From Cylindrospermum sp. NIES-4074 (GTDB lineage Bacteria > Cyanobacteriota > Cyanobacteriia > Cyanobacteriales > Nostocaceae), in assembly GCA_003994795.1 (NCBI GenBank), contig AP018269.1:1429346-1493345 (forward strand): a DNA stretch of 64,000 nt, read 5' to 3'. Positions 54,400-64,000 of this stretch are shown piece by piece. A model generated the notes under the pieces. It made no database searches and was not told where the DNA came from. It saw nothing but the letters and a program-made list of their open reading frames with translations. The position numbers and the translations under genes were made by a program. Every line of letters starts with the position of its first letter. The stretch's first letter is position 1.

Positions 54400-56013
54400 T
54401 CAGCACTTTGCTATAACCAAACTTTCCAAAAAGCCTACTTCCACAGCAGATGCAAGTTTACCACCACCTTCTTCTAATAGCATCAGATACTTTTGCAACA
54501 AGGATTGCATTTTGGGAGTACGATATTGAGGAACAATTTGAGCTAAAGCTTGGCACCAGTGAGCTTCCGTGGGTAAGTAACCAAATCCAGCCAAATAAAT
54601 TGCTTCTTTAACTAGCTTATCTAGCTCCGCTCCCGAAAAACCTCTAGTTTTTTCCACCAAGAAACTCACAGTTTGTGAAGGAAGAGAGGGTAGTTTATAG
54701 GCTTGAGCGCGTTTTTGAAGAATTTCATCACGCTCTTTTGTATTAGGTGGCATGATAATGAAAATTTCATCAAATCTGCCAGCACGAAAAAGTTCTGGAG
54801 GCAGTACAGTTCTATCATTAGAAGTGGCAATGAAAAAGATAGGAAATTCATGGTCATTCAGCCAGGATAGAAAAGTGCCAAACTGGCGTGTACTGACTCC
54901 AGAACTATCACCACCTACTCCAGCAAAAGCTTTTTCAATCTCATCCATAAATAAAATATTGGGTGCTGAAGCTTCAATTGCTCGTAAGGCTTGAAATGTG
55001 TTACTTTCTGATTCACCTACCCATTTCGATTGCAAGCGTGATATTTCAAAGTTGATTTGCGGTACCCGCCATTCTTGAGCTATAGCTCTGGCAATAAAAG
55101 TCTTGCCACACCCAGGAAAGCCTTCTAGTAAAATGGCACGGGGACGCATTACTGGATTATTATCTTGCTCAAACCACTGCTGACGGTTCTGAACCCAAGT
55201 TTTAACATTTTCTAGTCCACCAACTTCTGATAATTCTTGACCTTGAGGGGAAAAATATTCTAAAACTCCAGTTTTACGAATTTCTTGCTTCTTAATTTCT
55301 AAAAGTAATTGTCCAGCTTCCTGGGGTCTTGACCATAAGTTTCTCGCATTGATTAATCTTGCCGTTTGCACCGCCGCTTGTAAGGGCATTCCTTGAGCTT
55401 GTTCAGATAATTTTCTGGCTTCCTCTGAGCTAATTCCTGTTTTCTCGCTCACAACACTAAAGACATCTTGATAAAGCTCTTCACCAATAGGCAATGGTAA
55501 ATCTTGAATATGAACGTTGTTCCGGAGGATTGCAGGAATTGACCAATCTAAACCCACGACAATCAATGTTATTCTTGGGCGTGGTTGTTTTTCTTCAATC
55601 GCAATCACTAATTCTTTAAGTTTACGAGCAGTGGAATGGCAATTAGGCTCTATCAGTGTTGACCAATCTGGCAGAATATAAGTGTATTGACTATCTGGAT
55701 TTTTGCCAGCTTGGTCTTGCAATCGCTTTTGCAAGAAGTTGAGAGCTTGCACTAAGGGGTCAGCGTTAGGTTCAGGAGCAGAACCTGTACTTTGCCAAGT
55801 ATCTTCCCCCGCTAGTCTCTGAAAACCGTCGATACTGCTCCACCTTGCTAGTTCACCACTTTTAATGTTTAAATTGCCAATGAGGCATTGATGAGCGGCG
55901 ATCGCACAATTTACAGCCCGACTTTCTTCTGAAGAACGGAGAAAAATCAATGGATATCGTGATTTCAACAGGTCTTGCAGTTCCCGTTGACACTTATCAT
56001 AGGGTAGTTCCAT
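54400..56013 (-). CDS. AAA+ ATPase, Ycf46-like
   Basis: A 537-residue protein. Residues 1-245 form a degenerate Ycf46-type N-terminal domain (CQRELQDLLKSRYPLIFLRS, then IVVGLDWSIPAIL). The AAA+ module follows: Walker A GFPGCGKT (298-305), Walker B ILFMDEIEKAF (Asp357-Glu358), sensor IATSND, and Arg fingers in FRAGRFDEIF. The lid domain follows (GFSGAELDKLVKEAIYLAG). Ycf46 proteins are stand-alone cyanobacterial/plastid ATPases linked to inorganic carbon responses. Here the gene ends a minus-strand cluster with vWA and GTPase genes, 24 bases after the small proline-rich gene, which suggests a remodelling role in that system. Confidence 0.85.
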   Translation of the reverse strand: MELPYDKCQRELQDLLKSRYPLIFLRSSEESRAVNCAIAAHQCLIGNLNIKSGELARWSSIDGFQRLAGEDTWQSTGSAPEPNADPLVQALNFLQKRLQDQAGKNPDSQYTYILPDWSTLIEPNCHSTARKLKELVIAIEEKQPRPRITLIVVGLDWSIPAILRNNVHIQDLPLPIGEELYQDVFSVVSEKTGISSEEARKLSEQAQGMPLQAAVQTARLINARNLWSRPQEAGQLLLEIKKQEIRKTGVLEYFSPQGQELSEVGGLENVKTWVQNRQQWFEQDNNPVMRPRAILLEGFPGCGKTFIARAIAQEWRVPQINFEISRLQSKWVGESESNTFQALRAIEASAPNILFMDEIEKAFAGVGGDSSGVSTRQFGTFLSWLNDHEFPIFFIATSNDRTVLPPELFRAGRFDEIFIIMPPNTKERDEILQKRAQAYKLPSLPSQTVSFLVEKTRGFSGAELDKLVKEAIYLAGFGYLPTEAHWCQALAQIVPQYRTPKMQSLLQKYLMLLEEGGGKLASAVEVGFLESLVIAKC

Positions 56014-56037
56014 ATCGAAGTATAAAGTAAACTCAAA

Positions 56038-56538
56038 CTAACTATCAAAATCATCAAATTTGTTACCTTTACGCCGCTTTTCTATAATAATTTCTGTCCC
56101 TGATTTCTCCTCAGCAGTTGGTTTAGCAGGGGTACTTTCTGAACTCGGATGACGCAAAGGTGGCTTCGACGCTGGGAAGGGTTTCGACGGTGGTGCAGGA
56201 AAGGTATTACTTTGAATTTGAGTGGGTGTTGATGTTGGTTCGGCGGTGGTAATTGGGGAAGTAACAAAAGTTCCTGTCGGTAAGTCTACAGTTACAGTTG
56301 TGCGGCGTAAATTTTGTTTAATATCCTCAGTCCACTCATAAATAATCCGTTTTAATTGAATATCACTGACTTGACGCACCGTTTTCGTTTGTATGCTTTC
56401 CCGCAGACATGACTTATGATCTTCTATGGCAAAATAGTCTTCGGGATATCTCGTTTCAGCAACTGTAAGATTGACAGAATAGGAGATTTCTTTATTCCCT
56501 GCATTGGGGATTTTGACTACAAGAGTGTATTCTGGCAT
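56038..56538 (-). CDS. Small protein with proline-rich tail, cluster member
   Basis: A 166-residue protein of unknown family. Residues 1-90 are a compact alpha/beta domain (MPEYTLVVKIPNAGNKEISY and IIYEWTEDIKQNLRRTTVTV). Residues 91-140 are Pro/Ser/Thr-rich and presumably disordered. The C-terminus is charged (EIIIEKRRKGNKFDDFDS). It lies 10 bases after the vWA gene and 24 bases before the AAA+ gene, so it is probably translated from the same transcript. It could be an adaptor between the AAA+ ATPase and other members; this is inference from position. Confidence 0.7.
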   Translation of the reverse strand: MPEYTLVVKIPNAGNKEISYSVNLTVAETRYPEDYFAIEDHKSCLRESIQTKTVRQVSDIQLKRIIYEWTEDIKQNLRRTTVTVDLPTGTFVTSPITTAEPTSTPTQIQSNTFPAPPSKPFPASKPPLRHPSSESTPAKPTAEEKSGTEIIIEKRRKGNKFDDFDS

Positions 56539-56548
56539 TTTTACATCC

Positions 56549-57904
56549 TTAAGGATTTAAATTCTGTTCGGCTTGTTTTTTTAATTTCTGACTCCACTGC
56601 CAAAAAAGAAATATTGCTGCAAAACCGAGTATCGTTGTCAGTAAGAGTATGCCAAAGCGTTCTCCTAAAGACAGTTTAGTGTATTGAAAATTAGAAATCC
56701 GAATATTTTCTGGTGCAGAAATAACATCCTTCAACTCACGAGAGGGAGAATTCACTTGCACTCTTGTCTGATGACTGGTTCCCGGTGCCGCTCCTGGCTG
56801 TCGGTATACTAACTCATATTCTCGTAAGGTTGTCAGAAAAGCTGTCAAACTTTTAGCTACCTCATCAGCATTAGCAGAAAGTTTATAAATCCCACCTGTA
56901 GCTGTAGCAATTCCTTCCATCTGACTCTCATCAATTATAAATGCCCTGATATCTTGGTTTGGTAAACGACAATATCGACTTATATTACTTGGTGTTAGCT
57001 GATCATTAGGAATAAATAAAGAACATTGAGCGCGATCGCGTAAACTGCGTAAAGACTCTCCATATCCTAATGTATGAACTGTTACTTTAGGAGGTTGTTG
57101 GAGAAAACGCTGTAAATTTTGCAATTGCTCACTGTTGCTGTTATCATAACCATCTGTCAGCAGAATTACAGCTAGTCGTGGCTTGGGAGTATCTTCAGAA
57201 TTGACATTACTCACTGCCTGTGCATATTGATTTTGCAAATAATTTGTGGCAGCTTCCAGAGGTTGAGATAAATTAGTTGAGGCACAAACTGGGATATACG
57301 ATAATTCGCTAAGTTTGCTGTTTAATTGTTCGTCTTTGAGTTCATAAAAAGGAGAATTTTGAGCAATATTTTCTTTGTCAACTTCATACAAATAATTGCA
57401 TTGCTTACCACCTGAAAACCCAAAGGGAACTAGGGCTATTTTCATAGGGACTTTATCATTTTTAGCCTGTTGAGTAAATTTATTAACAGCTTTAATTGCT
57501 CCCTTAAGTTTCTCACTTCCTCCAGAGTCATATTGTCTCATACTGCCACTCATATCTAGGAGAATGGCGACATAAACAGGGTCAGTTTGAGATTGTTTTT
57601 CTGGGGGAATTAAATCAAATTTAATAGTAGAACGGTCTACAGATTTTTTATTGCTATCCGTAGTTAGAATTTGAAAGTCTCGCTGATTCAAGCCTTGAAT
57701 AGGTACGTTGCCATCGTCAATAACTCTAACTCTTAAAGTGATGAGATCACCATCGCTAATATGCCGATAGATATCTACAGTACTGGCTATGGCGGGAAAT
57801 GGTAATAAGCTAAAGAAAGCGGCGATCGCACTTAATCTAAGCTTGGGGGTCGAGAAATCGGTCATAGAACACAAAGCGGTAATATTTGTCTTCATTTCCG
57901 GCAT
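56549..57904 (-). CDS. Exported von Willebrand factor A domain protein with C-terminal membrane anchor
   Basis: A vWA protein of up to 451 residues. The first 40 residues include a signal-like segment (KLRLSAIAAFFSLLPFPAIA). The most likely start may be the internal ATG at 57865, 13 codons in. The MIDAS is complete: DMSGS (Asp117, Ser119, Ser121), SYIPVCASTNLSQPL (Thr region) and LLTDGYDNSN. A helix near the C-terminus (FGILLLTTILGFAAIFLFWQ) anchors it, leaving a short cytoplasmic tail. The vWA domain thus faces the periplasm. Its 5' end overlaps the FHA-like gene, indicating tight coupling. Confidence 0.85.
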   Translation of the reverse strand: MPEMKTNITALCSMTDFSTPKLRLSAIAAFFSLLPFPAIASTVDIYRHISDGDLITLRVRVIDDGNVPIQGLNQRDFQILTTDSNKKSVDRSTIKFDLIPPEKQSQTDPVYVAILLDMSGSMRQYDSGGSEKLKGAIKAVNKFTQQAKNDKVPMKIALVPFGFSGGKQCNYLYEVDKENIAQNSPFYELKDEQLNSKLSELSYIPVCASTNLSQPLEAATNYLQNQYAQAVSNVNSEDTPKPRLAVILLTDGYDNSNSEQLQNLQRFLQQPPKVTVHTLGYGESLRSLRDRAQCSLFIPNDQLTPSNISRYCRLPNQDIRAFIIDESQMEGIATATGGIYKLSANADEVAKSLTAFLTTLREYELVYRQPGAAPGTSHQTRVQVNSPSRELKDVISAPENIRISNFQYTKLSLGERFGILLLTTILGFAAIFLFWQWSQKLKKQAEQNLNP

Positions 57905-58883
57905 GATAGAAAGTTAAAATTTGGTTGTGCCTCAAAGGAGTTGATCTGGCATTTTGCAGGAGCAGCCTTGACTGAATTTGCACTTTTTTCTCAGCAAGAC
58001 AAGCGAGAGTGACATGGCGATTTTTAATTTCAAAGGATGCAGCTTTTTCAGGAATATCAGGAATATAAATATCTGCATCTAAAGAGGAACCGATAATAAT
58101 TGGTTTTGTTGTAGCCGCAGGTAATTGAATTGATAAACCCTCTTCAATGAACTCATAGTGATCTCCCGTCACAAATTGCAGATCAGGGTTGTTCAGCCGG
58201 GGATGAAGGCGATCGCTATCATCATAGTTAGGATCTACAGCCTCAAAGCCCTCACCAGCCCTGAGAGCGACTTGGTAAGTGGGAGAAGTCGCAAAACTCA
58301 AGGAAAGACCCAGAGAAAGTCCCAAAATCATGAATCCCAACGGGTCTTTGTATCTCTCCAATCCACTAATTCGGAGGATAACCTCCACTAAAATCGCCGC
58401 CACAAATCCCGCTCCCACCCCAAACACGGTTGCTCTTTGAATGCGCTCAATAGCCTTGCGGGTTCCCCCCTCAATACTCCGCAGACGCCAGCTGACACCC
58501 TCACCCAGACCGATAAACAGACCCACAAGACTCCAACAGATAATCCTCACCAACCAAGCAGGAGCACCAGTTTGGTAGAGTATCCAAGTTAAACAAGCAG
58601 CGATTAACCCCGCCACAGTCCCTATTCCCAATGCTGCCCATAAATAGCGCGGTAACACTCTTCTATTAGATTTGTAGCGTGTGGGATTACTCAAAAATAT
58701 TTCTGTCGTTACCATCGCCGCAGCCAGACAAGCGGCTACAATAGGGAGCAAAATAAAATCTGGATTGAAGGGTAGGGACTTAGCACCAAAAATTTTAGCC
58801 ATATCAATCAAAAGGATTTGGCTGAAACTCCAACCAATTAAGGCACAGACAATGCCGGATGTGGTGTAAAAGTAAAATCTCAT
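57837..58883 (-). CDS. Multi-pass membrane protein with C-terminal FHA-like domain
   Basis: A 348-residue protein. Residues 1-195 contain about six hydrophobic helices (IVCALIGWSFSQILLIDMA, ILLPIVAACLAAAMVTTEIF, VARLI-type helix ICWSLVGLFIGLGEG and others). Residues about 235-345 form a soluble beta domain: KPIIIGSSLDADIYIPD, KAASFEIKNRHVTLACL, TPLRHNQILTFY. The order (IG.s...Di.i.D, ..H..l, L..n..i.f) is FHA-like, although the usual GR and SxxH residues are partly replaced. FHA domains bind phosphothreonine. It lies between the split membrane protein and the vWA gene. Confidence 0.7.
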   Translation of the reverse strand: MRFYFYTTSGIVCALIGWSFSQILLIDMAKIFGAKSLPFNPDFILLPIVAACLAAAMVTTEIFLSNPTRYKSNRRVLPRYLWAALGIGTVAGLIAACLTWILYQTGAPAWLVRIICWSLVGLFIGLGEGVSWRLRSIEGGTRKAIERIQRATVFGVGAGFVAAILVEVILRISGLERYKDPLGFMILGLSLGLSLSFATSPTYQVALRAGEGFEAVDPNYDDSDRLHPRLNNPDLQFVTGDHYEFIEEGLSIQLPAATTKPIIIGSSLDADIYIPDIPEKAASFEIKNRHVTLACLAEKKVQIQSRLLLQNARSTPLRHNQILTFYHAGNEDKYYRFVFYDRFLDPQA

Positions 58884-58958
58884 TTTTTATTTAGGGATTA
58901 TCAGCGTTATTTCCGACAGTTTTCATAGTCTAGAATAATTTCTTTTTTACACTCCTGA

Positions 58959-60359
58959 TCAATTAGGTTTCTCTTTAGCTAAAACTCGATTTGAACAGCT
59001 AAGAAAAACAGAATTGTCATTATAAAGATTAACATTTTTGTTTTGACAATTTTTTAGATTTTGAATGTCTTGTTTAATTTGCTGATTATCTTTACTCTGT
59101 TCAAAGCTTATGTGTAAAAACTCAGCCGCTATAATTACTTGCCTATCTACAAATTGCGGAGATTGGGTGAGAGCTTGCCAAGTTTTAGCATCTACAACTC
59201 TATTAGTTTTCAGATTATTTGTGTTTTGAATTTGTTCAATAGCATCTATAGTATTTTGATCAAACTGCCCGTTAATTTGAACATTATAGTTGTCTTGAGT
59301 TTTTAATACTGTTTGGACGATTTTTATCTCTTCAGGTGAACTACCTTGTTTGATTGGCTTTTTACCTAAACTATTGGATTTTAATGATAGTTTTGGGACA
59401 AATTCATTTTTGATAAAACCATATATCTCATCATACCTCTCAGGTTTTTCATATCTTGAATCGTTAAGGTAATTTATCAGGCTTTTCATGTCCTCCTTAA
59501 TATGATTCTTTGCCTCTTGATTCTTTTCCCAGAGTTGAAAATCTTCTGAGAAATCGCGCTTGGTTGTTTCTCTATTTTCATTAGCATTAGATTGGGGTGG
59601 TAGCGACTTAGAAAATGGAGGTAATATTCCATTCCTCAATGCCAACAAGCCAAGAATAGCAACGATGATAAATAGACAGCTAATTCCACCTATCAAAAAA
59701 AAAGGGCGGTCTAATTGCGGTCGAAGCCAATTTTTTTCTTTAAATTTTCTCTCATTGCACCTAAGATGAATAATTTCCAAGTCAGCAAGACCGTATATCT
59801 TCGCTGGTACTCTACCATCACTCAATTGATAGAAAAAAGCTGATAAAGTATGATTTTGTGCCTTGATCATTAATTCGGCTAAAGCTTTATATTCTGGCCT
59901 TTTATACTGTGCTTGCGGATTATTAGGAAGGTCATGGTGCTGGACAATTACTAATAATTCTTGATAAAAATCATCACCTCCTTCATCTTCATCCCTCCTA
60001 GTTAGTTGAAAAACAATTTGCTTTAAATATTTCCTAAAGTAGTGAGACCATATACTTCTTGGACTCAGAAATAGCTTTTGAATAGTAGGAGATTCAGAAT
60101 GACTGAGCGATCTATACTTAAGTAGAAGTTTTGATATTTCTTTTAAAATACAGTATTCTAACTGAGTTTCAACTTGTTTGTTTGTCCTGTTTGAGCAAAT
60201 TTTTAGTAGAGAAAATTGAACATTTAGAGCAGCAGTTTTGTTGCCACTACTATAGTTTTTAAACTCAGAGAACCAATTAATTACTTGCTCATACCCTAAA
60301 ATAGTCAGCAATGCCCAATATCTAGCTACAGAATCGTTAGGTGGATCAGTATTTAGCAT
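58959..60359 (-). CDS. 3' part of a frameshifted large membrane protein (peptidoglycan-binding-like domain)
   Basis: Its 466 residues contain an N-terminal helical region, one membrane helix (about 221-243, FLIGGISCLFIIVAILGLLA) and a peptidoglycan-binding-1-like domain (about 333-400: IKIVQTVLKTQDNYNVQING, FDQNTIDAIEQIQNTNNLKT). The ATG at 60359 is probably only an internal Met. The same frame is open upstream through PSFWSNLRLCLLTSARNVDD into the 33-bp repeat array, where it joins the frame of the 5' ORF if a 5-base duplication is removed. The intact gene would span 58959-61654. Confidence 0.75.
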   Translation of the reverse strand: MLNTDPPNDSVARYWALLTILGYEQVINWFSEFKNYSSGNKTAALNVQFSLLKICSNRTNKQVETQLEYCILKEISKLLLKYRSLSHSESPTIQKLFLSPRSIWSHYFRKYLKQIVFQLTRRDEDEGGDDFYQELLVIVQHHDLPNNPQAQYKRPEYKALAELMIKAQNHTLSAFFYQLSDGRVPAKIYGLADLEIIHLRCNERKFKEKNWLRPQLDRPFFLIGGISCLFIIVAILGLLALRNGILPPFSKSLPPQSNANENRETTKRDFSEDFQLWEKNQEAKNHIKEDMKSLINYLNDSRYEKPERYDEIYGFIKNEFVPKLSLKSNSLGKKPIKQGSSPEEIKIVQTVLKTQDNYNVQINGQFDQNTIDAIEQIQNTNNLKTNRVVDAKTWQALTQSPQFVDRQVIIAAEFLHISFEQSKDNQQIKQDIQNLKNCQNKNVNLYNDNSVFLSCSNRVLAKEKPN

Positions 60360-60484
60360 TTTTAGGTCAACAACTTGTTCCCATTCCCAAGCCCACTTAT
60401 TGCTAATACTTTGTTCTAAATAATCAGCAAGTCTTACCAGATTTTGGTCATCAACGTTTCTAGCACTGGTTAATAAGCAAAGTC

Positions 60485-61654
60485 TCAGGTTACTCCAAAA
60501 ACTAGGATTTGCTCGTCCAGGATGTCTTGTACCAGTAGCACCAGGTTGTTGATATTGTCCTGTACCAGTAGCACCAGGTTGTTGATATTGTCCTGTAACA
60601 GTAGCACCAGGTTGTTGATATTGTTCTGTAACAGTACAGTAGCACCAGGTTGTTGATATTGTTCTGTAGCAGTAGCACCAGGTTGTTGATATTGTCCTGT
60701 AACATTAGCACCAGGTTGTTGATATTGTTCTGTACTAGTAGCACCAGGTTGTTGATATTGTTCTGTACTAGTAGCACCAGGTTGTTGATATTGTTCTGTA
60801 CCAGTAGAAGGAGCTAATTCCCCTAGTTGAAGTACACTGTGGCTCCGCTGCCTATTAGTATTCAGGTAATTAACCTCTTCCCCTTGGTTTTGAGATTGTA
60901 TAGAAGTAGTTTGAGGGATAGGTATTAACTGTTTGAGTTTACTTTTGACATCTTCAGATATGTATTTATAGGCTGTGTCATCAGCACAATAAATCAGTGT
61001 TAGGTTATAACTGGCTGATTTTTCTAGCAAGCGCACATTCCAAGCCCAAGCTACGGGAGTGTTAGCATATTTTTGATGTAGATGTAGAGCTAATGCATGA
61101 AGTACCCGACGTTGGCATTTATCTTTACAGACATAGGGAAAAAATTTGACTTCAGTTATAAATTTTTCTAGTTGTTGAGGTTGAAGATATGCCTCAAACC
61201 TCTTTATAGGGTAGTAGTATTGAGGAAGATAGTTAAGGCTAGTCTGTGTACTTTGTTCAAATTCAAACTTAGGTTCTCCTTGATTTATCCACCACTCTAA
61301 TAATGTACCAACACCATCCATATCTTTAATAATTCTTTTTAGCCAAAAATATCGATAAGCAACTAGATTACGGTTGCCTTTATCATCGAATTCCCGTGTA
61401 GCTACTGCTAAAACAGAATAGTCGTCTATCTCTTTGGCAATCAGAGCGTGTTCTCCATCCGCTGGAGGATAATTATCATTGATCCGAAATTCTCCTTGGT
61501 TAACAGCCTGTTTAATTTGTTCAGGTATGGGAAATTCAGATTCACCAACTTCTTTGCCAAACCCACCAGAAACCCATCTGCCATCTTTCTTAGAAGTATC
61601 GATTAACTGTCTAGAAAACTCATGCACATAATAATCAGAATTTGGGTATGTCAT
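60485..61654 (-). CDS. 5' part of the same frameshifted protein, with QYQQPGA repeats
   Basis: Its 389 residues begin MTYPNSDYYVHEFSRQLIDT. The first roughly 270 residues are a soluble domain I do not recognise (ALIAKEIDDYSVLAVATREF, YRYFWLKRII, VLHALALHLHQKY). By position beside the GTPases it may be a GTPase-associated domain. Then come 11-residue repeats (TEQYQQPGATS). At 60631-60640 the sequence ACAGTACAGT shifts the frame; after it the ORF reads the repeats as NINNLVLL and stops at 60485. The last roughly 50 residues are therefore artefactual relative to the ancestral frame. The start is 12 bases after the upstream GTPase gene. Confidence 0.75.
   Translation of the reverse strand: MTYPNSDYYVHEFSRQLIDTSKKDGRWVSGGFGKEVGESEFPIPEQIKQAVNQGEFRINDNYPPADGEHALIAKEIDDYSVLAVATREFDDKGNRNLVAYRYFWLKRIIKDMDGVGTLLEWWINQGEPKFEFEQSTQTSLNYLPQYYYPIKRFEAYLQPQQLEKFITEVKFFPYVCKDKCQRRVLHALALHLHQKYANTPVAWAWNVRLLEKSASYNLTLIYCADDTAYKYISEDVKSKLKQLIPIPQTTSIQSQNQGEEVNYLNTNRQRSHSVLQLGELAPSTGTEQYQQPGATSTEQYQQPGATSTEQYQQPGANVTGQYQQPGATATEQYQQPGATVLLQNNINNLVLLLQDNINNLVLLVQDNINNLVLLVQDILDEQILVFGVT
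60541..60809 (-). repeat. Array of eight 33-bp coding repeats, one carrying a 5-bp duplication
   Basis: The units, on the plus strand ccaggttgttgatattg...tagca, are 33 bases each, except the third (60607-60644), which is 38 bases because ACAGT is duplicated. Units 1, 2 and 4-7 keep the 11-codon frame; unit 8 is the degenerate edge. The repeat encodes QYQQPGA plus four variable residues. Confidence 0.95.
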
Positions 61655-61666
61655 TGCTGTTTACTC

Positions 61667-62557
61667 CTATAAATCTCTTAATCTCTGGTCATCTTTACCT
61701 GTGTGCAACCAATAAATAGGGGCAACTAAACCAAAGGGTCGCCAAACTGAGGTGTTATCAATTACGGCATAAGTCCCGCCACTCTCTCTTGATTGCACTT
61801 TAACATTAGGTGTAGCTGGACTCCCTTTCATCCCGAATGCTGAACAAAAAAAGTAATTCATTGGACAACGCCAAGTTTTAGACCATTTGTTCAGGGTTTC
61901 TTTGGTTTTAGGGAATCTGCGATTGGTAAACTTTTGGATGTCGTAACGATGAATCCAAACTTGAGCTTGTTCTGCTTTGGAAAAGACAACAGCTATGCGG
62001 TATTGTCTCAAATTTTTGTTTCTACCTATTAGACGTACATTTAATTCTGTTTGTAATGTGGCAAAAGCTTGAGCATAATGGTTATCTTCTCTAGAAGTAC
62101 CATCTACTAACAACAACAGACCCGAAGAATCAGCGCAGTCATCTAAGTAGTCGCTGAGATTAATTCCTGAAGAGCCACCACGTAAGTCTTTAATAATTTC
62201 GCCTGAATATTCCCGACAAGATACTTGAAACCTTAAGTTGTTGCCGATATTTCCAATCTGGAATGCTGGTTTAAGTTCAATTAATAATGTATACAAAGGC
62301 AAGCTATGCACATCTTCATCAGGTCTTGTGGGAGCCATAGACAAGCCATTTTCGAGGATGTCTTGTGCTATGGCAATTAGTCTGCCAGATTCATCGTCAA
62401 ACGGATTAACTGACTGAATGGGGCTATCAAGTTTGGCATTAGGCCAACGGGCTAAGGAGGCCATAAATGTAGTTTTGCCAGAACTTTGGGGGCCAATAAT
62501 TCTAATGTCAGGATTGCCTGGTAAGTCTCGTGGTATTCTTCTAAAGGCGTTGATCAT
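61667..62557 (-). CDS. P-loop GTPase-like protein, third of three
   Basis: A 296-residue TRAFAC-like NTPase. Walker A/G1 is GPQSSGKT (22-29). The G3 position reads REYSG (115-119), with Glu where DxxG is usual. The G4 position is VVFSKAE (Ser193-Glu196) in place of NKxD. LLLLVDGTSRED follows a beta strand. The sequence parallels the gene upstream (SGRLIAIAQDIL, WRPFGLVAPIYWLHTGKDDQ at the end), so the two are paralogues. Its start overlaps the end of that gene by 17 bases. Nucleotide specificity is uncertain because G4 is altered. Confidence 0.75.
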   Translation of the reverse strand: MINAFRRIPRDLPGNPDIRIIGPQSSGKTTFMASLARWPNAKLDSPIQSVNPFDDESGRLIAIAQDILENGLSMAPTRPDEDVHSLPLYTLLIELKPAFQIGNIGNNLRFQVSCREYSGEIIKDLRGGSSGINLSDYLDDCADSSGLLLLVDGTSREDNHYAQAFATLQTELNVRLIGRNKNLRQYRIAVVFSKAEQAQVWIHRYDIQKFTNRRFPKTKETLNKWSKTWRCPMNYFFCSAFGMKGSPATPNVKVQSRESGGTYAVIDNTSVWRPFGLVAPIYWLHTGKDDQRLRDL

Positions 62558-63425
62558 GGAGATTTTTACCTGTACTCAACCAATAAATTGGAGAAATCAG
62601 CCCAAAAGGATGCCATTGGTTAGGACTCCTTAGAAAGGCATTATGGTCTGCTGAACTACCATCATCAGGAATGTAGCGATTGGGACGTGGGTCAAAATCG
62701 TCTGTGCGATCGCTTAATACTCCAAAGGATGAACAGGCAAAAAATCTTAATCTGTTAGTCCGGGGTGGAAATGTCTTATTCAGAAACTGATAAGTTTTTG
62801 GCAATCTGACTTTGAATAAGTCTTCTTCTGGTTCTAGACGACCAGGCCAGATTTCGCCGCGTTCACACTTTGACATGACAACTGCAATTCGCAAGTTTTT
62901 AATTTCTGGATTAACCTGTTCCCTGTCAGAAATTTCTTGGCTAAGTTTTTCAAATGCTGGTAGATAAAGGCGAGTATCTTGACCTGGTTCCCAGTCAGTT
63001 AGCATTACCATCCAGCTTTGAGCAACAAATAGGTCTTCAATAAACGGGATAATTTCATACGACTTATGTTCAGTGGATAAATCTTCAAATATTTTGCCAG
63101 CAAAATCTCTCGTTGTTAGCTCAATTTCTGTACCAGATAAACCTTTAAAAGTGGGGATTTTGATGCGGAAATAGTAATAGGGGATGTTGTCTACATCTCC
63201 TTTTAGTGTCCCCGCTAATTTAGCTCCTTTTTTGATAATATCTTCTGCCATTCGCGCTAATCTTCCTGTCTCTGAACCTCTATCGTAACTAATAGTTAAA
63301 CCAGGTAATTGGCTTTCTAGCTCTTTTTGGTGCGGAAAATAAGCGAGGGTGGCTAAATAGGTGGTTTTGCCAGAAGAACGCGGGCCTATGATCCGAATTT
63401 CTGTTGTTTGAGGATGATGAGCCAT
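62541..63425 (-). CDS. P-loop GTPase-like protein, second of three
   Basis: A 294-residue paralogue of the next gene. G1 is GPRSSGKT (14-21), G3 RDFAG (Asp107-Gly110) and G4-like VVMSKCE (Ser185-Glu188). The tail WHPFGLISPIYWLSTGKN is shared with the downstream paralogue. There is no membrane segment. ATG at 63425 lies one base after the TAA of the upstream gene. Together with its neighbours it probably forms hetero-oligomeric switches, but no partner is proven. Confidence 0.75.
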   Translation of the reverse strand: MAHHPQTTEIRIIGPRSSGKTTYLATLAYFPHQKELESQLPGLTISYDRGSETGRLARMAEDIIKKGAKLAGTLKGDVDNIPYYYFRIKIPTFKGLSGTEIELTTRDFAGKIFEDLSTEHKSYEIIPFIEDLFVAQSWMVMLTDWEPGQDTRLYLPAFEKLSQEISDREQVNPEIKNLRIAVVMSKCERGEIWPGRLEPEEDLFKVRLPKTYQFLNKTFPPRTNRLRFFACSSFGVLSDRTDDFDPRPNRYIPDDGSSADHNAFLRSPNQWHPFGLISPIYWLSTGKNLHDQRL

Positions 63426-63426
63426 G

Positions 63427-64000
63427 TTAGTTATGATGGTGTGAAGCCAGATAAATCCAGGGAAGTTCTAATAAATGAGGATTGTCGGTTGAAGTGATAA
63501 AAAATTGTAAGGCGGTGGCGTAAGGACGGGAATTATATTCCTGAATTATTTTATCAGCGCTTGTAAAATAGGTTCTGCGGACATATTTGTTATATTCAAA
63601 GAATGGAGATTCTTTGGAATTTTTATATTTCCATTTATTACCTTCTTGTTGAATGTCACAAAACGTATCTGCTTTGTGAATACAAATCAGTAGATGTTGG
63701 GCGTTGGCGCAATTATCTTTGAAGAAATCTAGCCAGTATTTGAATCGATTTACCCAGGCTTGATTGGATGGTAATTCATCTACATCAATGCGACCATCCA
63801 ATCGGTTTGGGTTAACTCTGTCACCATTTGGGGGAAGCAGCAAAATCACTCCTGTACTTTGACTGATTTGTTGTTTGATATCCTGCCAAGCAGTTGCATT
63901 GTCTTTCTGCCATTCTCGGTTAGAAAATGCTTCGCCTGGGGTGTCTATCCACAACAGCTGAATTTGCCTTTCACCAGATGGTAGGTCTACATTGATTAAC
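63427..64000 (-). CDS. P-loop GTPase-like protein, first of three (partial, continues past the window)
   Basis: The open frame continues to the window edge as LINVDLPSGERQIQLL then WIDTPGEAFSNREWQ, so the internal TTG at 63954 is not the start. WIDTPGE is a good G3 (DxPG), LLICIHKADTF is G4-like (HKAD), and the end is YATALQFFITSTDNPHLLEL. G1 lies beyond the window. It differs from the two downstream GTPases and looks like the more canonical member. The last 191 codons including the stop are visible. Confidence 0.75.
   Translation of the reverse strand, partial: LINVDLPSGERQIQLLWIDTPGEAFSNREWQKDNATAWQDIKQQISQSTGVILLLPPNGDRVNPNRLDGRIDVDELPSNQAWVNRFKYWLDFFKDNCANAQHLLICIHKADTFCDIQQEGNKWKYKNSKESPFFEYNKYVRRTYFTSADKIIQEYNSRPYATALQFFITSTDNPHLLELPWIYLASHHHN

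Follow-up and report, generated by a model that had tools for sequence, protein, structure and literature searches.

A cyanobacterial three-GTPase operon as a putative envelope-spanning variant of the DO-GTPase systems

The DO-GTPase/GAP1 systems, described by Kaur et al. 2020 (eLife, PMC7159879), are the known systems closest to the operon reported here. According to the relevant parts of that paper, conflict roles and a membrane-proximal site are predicted for the DO-GTPase systems, two paralogous GTPases are found in 38% of the published DO-GTPase/GAP1 systems, and GTPase-centric systems are nearly completely absent from cyanobacteria. In addition, gammaproteobacterial psp operons can hold a DO-GTPase that is predicted, in the section of the source treating these operons, to act in membrane stress (PMC11237479).

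We examined a stretch of 64,000 nucleotides (the window) from Cylindrospermum sp. NIES-4074. The minus-strand genes at 54400–64000 form one operon (Table 1), which continues beyond the window end with the rest of GTPa, the radical SAM gene, and then the helical-protein gene. The operon order is helical protein, radical SAM enzyme, GTPa, GTPb, GTPc, GAPx, FHAtm, vWA protein, small protein, and an AAA+ ATPase that we take to be Ycf46-like. The genes overlap or are separated by at most 75 bases, except in the split GAPx gene, whose two ORFs lie 125 bases apart. A first-pass annotation, made from the letters of the window alone, had described such a same-strand run, and its ORFs were found at the positions in Table 1. 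It had also failed to recognise the exact composition, and we likewise did not find this composition in the open-licence texts searched; no paper joining Ycf46 with a radical SAM enzyme and a GTPase in an operon was found in the full-text, open-licence literature, where the name DO-GTPase appears in two papers.

Table 1 Positions of the operon features within the window
Feature	Position	Strand	Description
GTPa	63427..64000, on to ~64185 outside the window	-	small Ras/Roc-like P-loop GTPase; radical SAM and helical-protein genes further upstream
GTPb	62541..63425	-	DO-GTPase-like P-loop GTPase
GTPc	61667..62557	-	DO-GTPase2-like GTPase
GAPx first half	60485..61654	-	N-terminal domain, then a linker of tandem repeats in which the frame breaks
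33-bp tandem repeat	60528..60807	-	8.3 copies; contains the frameshift
GAPx second half	58959..60359	-	middle domain, a single TM segment, PG_binding_1 at the C-terminus
FHAtm	57837..58883	-	six TM helices and C-terminal FHA-fold domain
vWA protein	56549..57904	-	signal-like segment at the N-terminus, vWA domain (DxSGSM motif), TM at the C-terminus; reading frame overlaps that of FHAtm
Small protein	56038..56538	-	N-terminal part common to type I and type II systems
Ycf46-like AAA+ ATPase	54400..56013	-	last operon gene; type I output

Several resemblances to the DO-GTPase/GAP1 systems, as these are portrayed in Kaur et al. (PMC7159879), were found. One is the pairing of DO-GTPases with a conserved acidic residue after DxxG. 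Another is that a dedicated multidomain protein with a C-terminal TM segment lies directly downstream. The last is that vWA, kinase, and PP2C neighbours occur in one theme, in a mobile and membrane-proximal setting; the mobile neighbourhood is reflected in the sparse occurrence of the operon, in plasmid carriage of one of its two forms (type II), and in the lack of the other (type I) at the same site in two close relatives. Unlike the systems in that paper, the present operon has a cyanobacterial host, a third, Ras-like GTPase, a 6-TM FHA-fold protein, and a radical SAM/AAA+ output, and it has no GAP1-N2, GASH, or FNIII match; neither GASH nor FNIII was matched by Pfam at E ≤ 1 in the genes of the window or those upstream of it. 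Since GAP1, GASH, and FNIII were undetected, the operon is regarded as a variant of the DO-GTPase/GAP1 systems and not as a member of them. The first-pass annotation had compared the mixture of NTPase switches, vWA, and membrane parts with predicted conflict systems. The DO-GTPase Pfam matches agree with this comparison, and the cluster, as judged from its sequences, appears to resemble predicted bacterial immune systems.

The synteny, motif, repeat, and distance counts below come from the best 80 of the 123 loci found in the genome collection; 14 loci (L031–L044), some of which represent the same genomes as the 80, were kept apart from these counts, and minimum lengths were applied to the motif counts. 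All three proteins that had been called GTPase-like carry intact G motifs. In the relatives of GTPa, G1, G3, and G4 were found in 63 of 64, 63 of 64, and 59 of 64 sequences, respectively, and in those of GTPb, G1, [DE][YF]xG[EK], and [SNT]KC[ED] were found in 71, 68, and 66 of 71, the window GTPb having K at the last position of the second motif. The corresponding [DE][YF]xGE is present in 77 of 80 GTPc proteins. Against Pfam, the window GTPb scores 15.4 bits with DO-GTPase (under the cut-off of 27), and the window GTPc scores 27.6 bits with DO-GTPase2 (cut-off 27), being the only window protein of the pair to pass. The DO-GTPase1 and DO-GTPase2 models each match 24/24 of the GTPb and GTPc proteins at E ≤ 0.1 (best 2e-9 and 8e-10), and the best match among PDB sequences is SRP receptor beta (E 8e-4). 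On these profile matches, which are mostly weak, GTPb and GTPc are assigned to the DO-GTPase group. Both occur together in 75 of the 80 loci; GTPc occurs without GTPb in five (L081, L083, L114, L146, and L148), of which L114 is a short contig. When one GTPc relative was compared with 50,697 phage records, no match at E ≤ 1e-3 was obtained, and on this comparison a phage origin was set aside; the result weighs neither for nor against defence.

The order of the genes recurs in tens of cyanobacterial loci from many families, and the grouping is far beyond chance; conservation of the neighbourhood across cyanobacteria had been proposed as a check on the first-pass annotation. Among the 80 loci, many of which lie on cut contigs, GTPa-b-c is contiguous in 65, GTPb-c-GAPx in 67, and FHAtm-vWA in 44, and FHAtm and vWA directly follow GAPx in 42 of the 49 loci having at least 3 kb beyond GAPx. 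The distances of the six core proteins are correlated (r 0.90–0.95) in the 37 of 80 loci whose six core genes all fall within set length limits; simple joint inheritance would equally give such correlation. Alignments A1–A4 were built from the unnamed-genome loci (L031–L044) only, and the others from 73 of 78 listed relatives (A5), 44 of 44 listed relatives (A6), 10 of 11 relatives (A7), and the small proteins of 8 of 10 type I and 11 of 16 type II systems (A8), each with the window.

GAPx occupies the position of the GAP1 gene, directly downstream of the GTPases, and is the most divergent core protein, with a mean identity of 27.8% as against 44.6–50.4% for the others (37 loci); it is missing from 12 of the 80 loci, partly owing to cut contigs. 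As a GAP1 family member it is without sequence support: no GAP1 model appeared among the best 25 of 44 families for 74 N-terminal domains (E ≤ 1) or among the best 25 of 29 families for 15 proteins (E ≤ 0.5). This comparison was by Pfam models, and distant homology is possible. In none of 292 phylum genomes did PF20013 (GAP1-N2) exceed its cut-off, one sub-threshold match being found elsewhere, and six Streptomyces plasmid records, searched for a GAP1-N2 sequence to serve as a reference, contained none. The N-terminal domains had no match at E ≤ 1 among PDB sequences. The fold model of this domain (pLDDT 88, pTM 0.86) gave structural matches to TagF (E 0.038), FNIP2 of the folliculin complex (0.058), and GATOR1 (0.21–0.23), with nothing at E 0.001 and with fluorescent proteins making up most of the 50 matches listed. 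As a lead, the model suggests a longin-like domain. A T6SS link through TagF was set aside, as hhalign of 74 N-terminal domains with one TagF gave a probability of 0.1, beside the structural match at E 0.038.

The first-pass annotation had reported a large membrane protein with repeats here. The membrane protein and its repeat are real; the two ORFs (58959–60359 and 60485–61654) are a single gene, broken by a frameshift within the 33-bp tandem repeat at 60528–60807. In relatives, GAPx is one ORF of about 550–1170 aa among the longer copies. By the same criterion, a tandem repeat was found in the GAPx genes of 7 of the 80 relatives and the 33-bp unit of this strain in none, and the repeat was thus rejected as a phase-variable switch. 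Since GAPx is frameshifted, the system may not fully work in this strain. The window locus could even be a decaying copy in which the frameshift abolishes the system, a less likely reading that is compatible with the others: the frame break sits inside a repeat peculiar to this strain, yet it falls where a linker joins two domains, and the operon ORFs other than GAPx are open with their motifs kept. Tandem repeats are, moreover, prone to assembly error and reversible slippage, which also argues against decay.

FHAtm had been annotated as an FHA-like membrane protein. The fold stands: its AlphaFold model (pLDDT 90.8) has seven PDB matches with E ≤ 0.001, every one of them to the DgcB FHA protein (the best at E 3.9e-5, with a TM by target of 0.69), and an FHA fold of the C-terminal domain is supported by this prediction. 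What does not stand is the usual set of phosphopeptide-binding residues. FHA domains bind phosphothreonine through GR and SRxH patterns; among the FHAtm proteins, IGR was found in 1 of 47, SRxH in 0 of 47, and IGS instead in 45 of 47, so that by sequence the domain is degenerate and without the canonical residues. At E ≤ 1, the Pfam FHA model picks up 5 of 45 members (best 0.026), the window protein not being among them, and a scan of the genome contigs with the FHAtm protein alone gave no result. The vWA protein, annotated as exported, is predicted to be exported and membrane-anchored, with an intact MIDAS start (DxSGSM), a signal-like segment, and a C-terminal TM. Together with the TM segment at residues 221–239 of GAPx ORF 58959–60359, such sequence features and the FHAtm model make the proposed trans-envelope topology likely.

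Two alternative output modules occur among the loci. Type I, the window form, consists of the radical SAM enzyme, the helical protein, and the AAA+ ATPase, whereas type II consists of vWA, FHA, PP2C, and kinase proteins (vWA2-ZnFHA-PP2C-kinase). The types sit on two branches of the GTPase tree; in the GTPc tree, module type corresponds to one branch (100/98). That tree was built from length-limited rows (78 of 80, with the window added), and the group test was run without the 43 rows of neither type. The outputs are two modules that track the tree, not a freely swapped effector set. The annotated AAA+ ATPase is borne out by PF00004 (E 1.1e-26), and its Walker A, Walker B, and F[RK]xxR[FL] motifs are kept in 9/9 relatives. 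No consistent Pfam match was found among the 11 helical proteins, any one family occurring in at most 3.

Both modules recall other described systems. The type II module resembles the vWA-kinase-PP2C-FHA relay that we presume to be TerY-P-like, although such a module is missing from the window operon; similar stand-alone vWA/kinase/FHA/PP2C quartets were found in two Deinococcus plasmids examined. Two of the kinase relatives examined lie in T6SS clusters with FHA and PP2C genes or tagF, similar to the T6SS threonine-phosphorylation module (presumably PpkA/PppA/Fha/TagF); no T6SS sheath, tube, or baseplate genes were recognised in the window operon or in one type II locus scanned. IetAS combines the AAA+ ATPase IetA with a serine protease partner. 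The PADLOC IetA models match the AAA+ core of the window ATPase (E 6e-17); identity with IetAS was rejected, as this match is generic and no serine-protease match was obtained among the operon genes. AriA weakly matches GTPc (E 0.023).

A GTPc relative was found on 8 plasmid records (4 mobilizable, 2 conjugative, 2 non-mobilizable). The complete core was present in order in 5 of 5 plasmid neighbourhoods examined, all of type II, including that of Trichormus variabilis ATCC 29413 plasmid B; plasmid carriage was thus observed for type II, none of these five copies being of the window form, type I. In the 35.8-kb Trichormus plasmid B, the operon takes up about half of the plasmid, close to par genes, and in a Gloeothece plasmid its neighbours include a type IV secretion gene. 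These placements and the plasmid records would fit an operon that serves its plasmid or mobile element (surface or entry exclusion, plasmid upkeep) and not host defence, a reading that we consider improbable: the window copy is part of a contig of 6.85 Mb, and several others (L110, L113, and L142) come from records whose titles name a chromosome or a complete genome. In the five plasmid records examined, most operon genes are annotated as hypothetical proteins. The plasmid copies and type II itself go beyond the first-pass annotation, as do the frameshift in GAPx and the radical SAM and helical-protein genes outside the window. A 2007 kinase survey includes Ava_B0009, a TPR kinase (PMC2176072, in the portion concerned).

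Envelope-stress or cell-wall homeostasis is a serious rival, less probable than a conflict role and still credible, in which the GTPases and the AAA+ ATPase would answer wall or membrane damage in the PSP manner, with no conflict role. It is favoured by the peptidoglycan-binding domain of the window GAPx (PG_binding_1 in the C-terminal half, Pfam E 2e-7), by the presence, in one type II locus scanned, of an ARC6-like IMS protein (E 4e-21) and of a protein weakly matching SH3 (E 0.004), by genes annotated as serine hydrolases in three plasmid copies, and by the DO-GTPase of gammaproteobacterial psp operons, as far as that source describes it (PMC11237479). However, PG_binding_1 occurs in just 3 of 14 GAPx relatives, and the distribution is unusual for homeostasis genes in three respects: 28 of 386 phylum genomes are positive, the own genome counted and three of the 28 only at E 1e-7 to 1e-5; type II is carried on plasmids; and two genomes of the same genus have the same flanking genes without the type I operon between them.

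The reading that we favour, at close to even chances, is that this accessory cyanobacterial operon encodes a GTPase-switched, envelope-spanning signalling machine, whose most likely role would be the recognition of invaders or hostile contact. Against a conflict role, the core is well conserved, in contrast to typical hypervariable effectors, and no killing or nucleic-acid-attacking domain was recognised in the operon by the Pfam and PADLOC scans. In the proposed mechanism, a ligand or damage at the wall would be sensed by the vWA domain together with the GAPx C-terminal tail; the signal would pass through FHAtm and the N-terminal domain of GAPx to the GTPb-GTPc pair, with GTPa as a priming switch; and the GTP state would engage the output module. 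In type I, the small protein and the AAA+ ATPase would then act on a substrate, aided by the radical SAM enzyme and the helical protein, and in type II, the kinase/PP2C/FHA/vWA relay would be the output.

More tentatively, the loci may represent a class of immune or contact sensors that cross the envelope of cyanobacteria. Three GTPases and GAPx, as a fast-evolving receptor that reaches the wall, would here monitor the periplasm by way of the vWA and FHA-membrane pair, with one conserved core and two outputs (AAA+/radical SAM or kinase/phosphatase); the N-terminal domain of GAPx, whose strands and helices follow a longin-like order, would serve as a regulator of GTPases and have no detectable sequence kinship to GAP1. 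The operon is a cyanobacterial branch found in many families, differing in its third component and having two outputs, as against the near absence stated in the pertinent part of Kaur et al. (PMC7159879). Because named culture strains, Trichormus variabilis ATCC 29413 among them, carry type II on plasmids, the question of defence or envelope function in DO-GTPase systems is open to direct genetic test.

The minus-strand open reading frames (ORFs) that the first-pass annotation had read as a run of same-strand genes at 54400–64000 were confirmed, and the operon was found to extend past the window end, beyond GTPa, on a contig of 6.85 Mb (genome, 7.70 Mb in five contigs). The transcription order is helical protein, radical SAM protein, three GTPases (GTPa, GTPb and GTPc), GAPx (a one-pass membrane protein), FHAtm (a six-TM protein with a C-terminal FHA fold), vWA (an exported, membrane-anchored vWA protein), small protein and AAA+ protein. 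The six genes from GTPa to vWA are referred to as the core hereafter. The flanking genes, both on the plus strand, are one for a peptidase M48 and, at the opposite end, a 369-aa ORF. Core neighbours are separated by median gaps of −68 to 38 bases (best 80 of 123 loci; starts picked mechanically). The FHAtm and vWA frames overlap; 44 such pairs in relatives do so to a similar extent (median 68 bases; mechanical starts), which possibly points to translational coupling.

Feature positions in window numbering (those beyond the window end are approximate: L002 positions + 60654)
Feature	Position	Location	Description
Helical protein gene	~64749–65900	upstream of radical SAM gene	
Radical SAM protein gene	~64189–64752	upstream of GTPa	Fer4_12, E 8e-33
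GTPa	to ~64185		252 aa, minus strand
GAPx gene, first half	60485–61654		ORF
33-bp tandem repeat	60528–60807	inside GAPx gene	8.3 copies
GAPx gene, second half	58959–60359		ORF
FHAtm/vWA frame overlap	57837–57904		

The genome-collection scan gave 123 relatives, the best 80 of which, all with cyanobacterial titles, were kept for the locus counts; core genes were called by profile searches on the ORFs of these 80 loci, where many contigs end within the operon. The closest GTPc among them is that of Iningainema tapete (79–80% identity). GTPc relatives occur in 12 of 291 genomes of the class and, by profile search, in 28 of 386 of the phylum (3 of the 28 only at E 1e-7 to 1e-5), the own genome being counted in both. 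The neighbourhood conservation proposed earlier as a check was borne out: among the best 80 of 123 loci, GTPa-b-c are contiguous in 65, GTPb-c-GAPx in 67 and FHAtm-vWA in 44, and all six core genes are present in 43. Where 3 kb or more of sequence follows the last GAPx (49 loci), FHAtm and vWA come next in 42; the other seven are L143, where both lie on the opposite strand, Prochloron L149, and Okeania L128, L130, L133, L134 and L135. In these Okeania loci, GTPa-b-c-GAPx is followed by no FHAtm or vWA downstream, possibly a minimal form. GTPc occurs without GTPb in 5 of the best 80 of 123 loci (L081, L083, L114, L146 and L148); in L081 and L083, it is about 60% identical to that of the window, and neither GTPb nor GAPx is nearby. 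In 37 loci with all six core genes within set length limits, the core distance matrices correlate at 0.90–0.95 (0 of 999 permutations as high), which argues against an accidental neighbourhood, yet is expected of any operon inherited whole. Judged from these sequences, the core is a unit inherited together.

Mean pairwise identities in the same 37 loci are 47.9% for GTPa, 49.9% for GTPb, 49.2% for GTPc, 27.8% for GAPx, 50.4% for FHAtm and 44.6% for vWA. Of the 49 loci that continue for 3 kb or more past GAPx, 39 have a single copy of this gene, 7 have two and 3 have three. Being the fastest-changing component and at times multiplied, GAPx might resemble a sensor. A large repeat membrane protein had been annotated at this place; the two ORFs there are halves of one gene, which is a single ORF in relatives. 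Since the change in repeat length is not a multiple of three, the frame shifts within the 33-bp repeat, which was found only in this strain among the GAPx genes of 80 relatives (best 80 of 123); the break may be a sequencing error, slippage or decay. In the window, the only TM segment of GAPx lies in the second half of the protein. Among 72 GAPx proteins of at least 560 aa, a TM segment lies beyond residue 480 in 70 and before residue 300 in 6; with the segment so late, the C-terminal tail would be outside. The window tail matches PG_binding_1 (E 2e-7), which is present in 3 of 14 relatives. The strand and helix order of the modelled N-domain (pLDDT 88, pTM 0.86) resembles that of longin domains, whose eukaryotic members act on small GTPases. 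Its structure matches were weak (TagF, FNIP2 and GATOR1, amid many unrelated ones), and a comparison with one sequence profile (TagF) was negative.

In the GTPases, G1, G3-like and G4-like motifs are conserved. DO-GTPase1 and DO-GTPase2 match GTPb/GTPc in 24 of 24 cases at E ≤ 0.1 (best, 2e-9 and 8e-10), although among the window proteins GTPc alone passes the DO-GTPase cut-off, narrowly; GTPa matches Roc (12 of 12) and DO-GTPase1 (9 of 12) weakly (E ≤ 0.1). According to Kaur et al. (2020, PMC7159879), DO-GTPase systems combine GAP1 with either GASH or FNIII components, have predicted conflict roles and are nearly completely absent from cyanobacteria. The operon shares with them the pairing of GTPases and a third component with the same position and a TM; its type II form (see below) also shares kinase/PP2C/vWA neighbours. 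However, GAP1, GASH and FNIII are not detectable in it, and it adds a third GTPase and an FHA-fold membrane protein; it is thus a variant of these systems rather than a member.

The predicted structure of FHAtm (pLDDT 90.8) shows six long helices and, at the C-terminus, an FHA fold (best PDB match, DgcB FHA, E 3.9e-5). The even number of helices and the positively charged loops suggest that this domain is cytosolic. IGR is absent from 46 of 47 sequences and SRxH from all 47, so that the usual phosphopeptide binding is unlikely. All 43 vWA proteins carry DxSGSM; that of the window has a hydrophobic segment near each end, whereas by a simple hydropathy count 17 relatives have one such segment, 25 have two and 1 has three. 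Walker A and B are present in 9 of 9 AAA+ relatives, and the window's genome encodes four other long AAA+ relatives (32–35% identity). Ycf46-like AAA+ genes on smaller contigs of this genome lie at L166:7224-9964 (contig C4) and L167:5462-8493 (contig C3), each after small genes, which presumably resemble those for DUF1257/DUF2997 proteins.

Two sets of putative output genes accompany the core. Type I genes, as in the window (helical, radical SAM, small protein or AAA+), occur in 12 of the best 80 of 123 loci, and vWA_f with type II genes (small protein, vWA2, vWA3, ZnR-FHA or PP2C; a kinase also belongs to this type) in 23, the type II identities coming from Pfam on one locus; none of these 80 loci has both. 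Where upstream sequence suffices, the radical SAM and helical genes occur together in 9 of 10 type I loci, and neither occurs in any of 18 type II loci. In a GTPc tree of 79 proteins, each type falls on one side of a single branch (support 100/98); three Crocosphaera loci in the type I branch have no type I genes inside the fetched stretch. Both types have the N-terminal part of the small protein in common. At least three genomes (Dolichospermum ST_sed8, Anabaena FACHB-1237 and Dulcicalothrix desertica) have both types, which are therefore not simple substitutes. In L041 and L044 (the latter cut by a contig end), a lone DO-GTPase-like gene lies beside PP2C/kinase genes with no GAPx, and in L041 also beside vWA2/ZnFHA genes; this gene arrangement suggests a direct GTPase-kinase link. 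A type II-like vWA-kinase-FHA-PP2C quartet stands alone on two Deinococcus plasmids (L170:15004-20976 and L171:14998-20784). The type II kinase has proteobacterial relatives inside type VI secretion clusters (L187 and L188, the latter adjoining tagF), and a Leisingera plasmid (L189:11947-19892) carries kinase, FHA and PP2C genes with two dynamin-family genes, another GTPase/phospho-signalling combination.

Among 72,556 plasmid records, 8 carry a GTPc relative; these come from Trichormus, Tolypothrix, Microchaete, Gloeothece and Nostoc, and some are near-identical to one another. All five plasmid neighbourhoods read have the six core genes in order together with type II genes, and no type I copy was seen in them. 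On the Tolypothrix plasmid (L158:489-7326), the system adjoins MoxR, GUN4 and WD40 genes, reminiscent of MoxR-vWA conflict systems. In the window's genome, the 369-aa ORF and the M48 gene are 12.0 kb apart with the operon between them; the distance shrinks to 5.7 and 5.4 kb in two genomes of the same genus, where other genes fill the interval and the operon is absent apart from one 59-base edge match, and in a same-family genome the distance is 0.9 kb. The difference within the genus may reflect gain or loss of the operon.

The operon, whose parts, motifs, synteny and patchy distribution are established here, is tentatively favoured as a conflict system because it is rare, patchy, plasmid-borne in the type II form and NTPase-switched; confidence is reduced because every plasmid copy read is type II. 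A role in envelope homeostasis is a serious but less probable alternative, supported by the DO-GTPases of some psp operons, for which PMC11237479 gives a predicted membrane-stress role. In the proposed mechanism, vWA and the GAPx tail would sense at the cell wall, the GTPase pair would receive the signal by way of FHAtm and GAPx, and the AAA+/radical SAM or kinase output would then be released.
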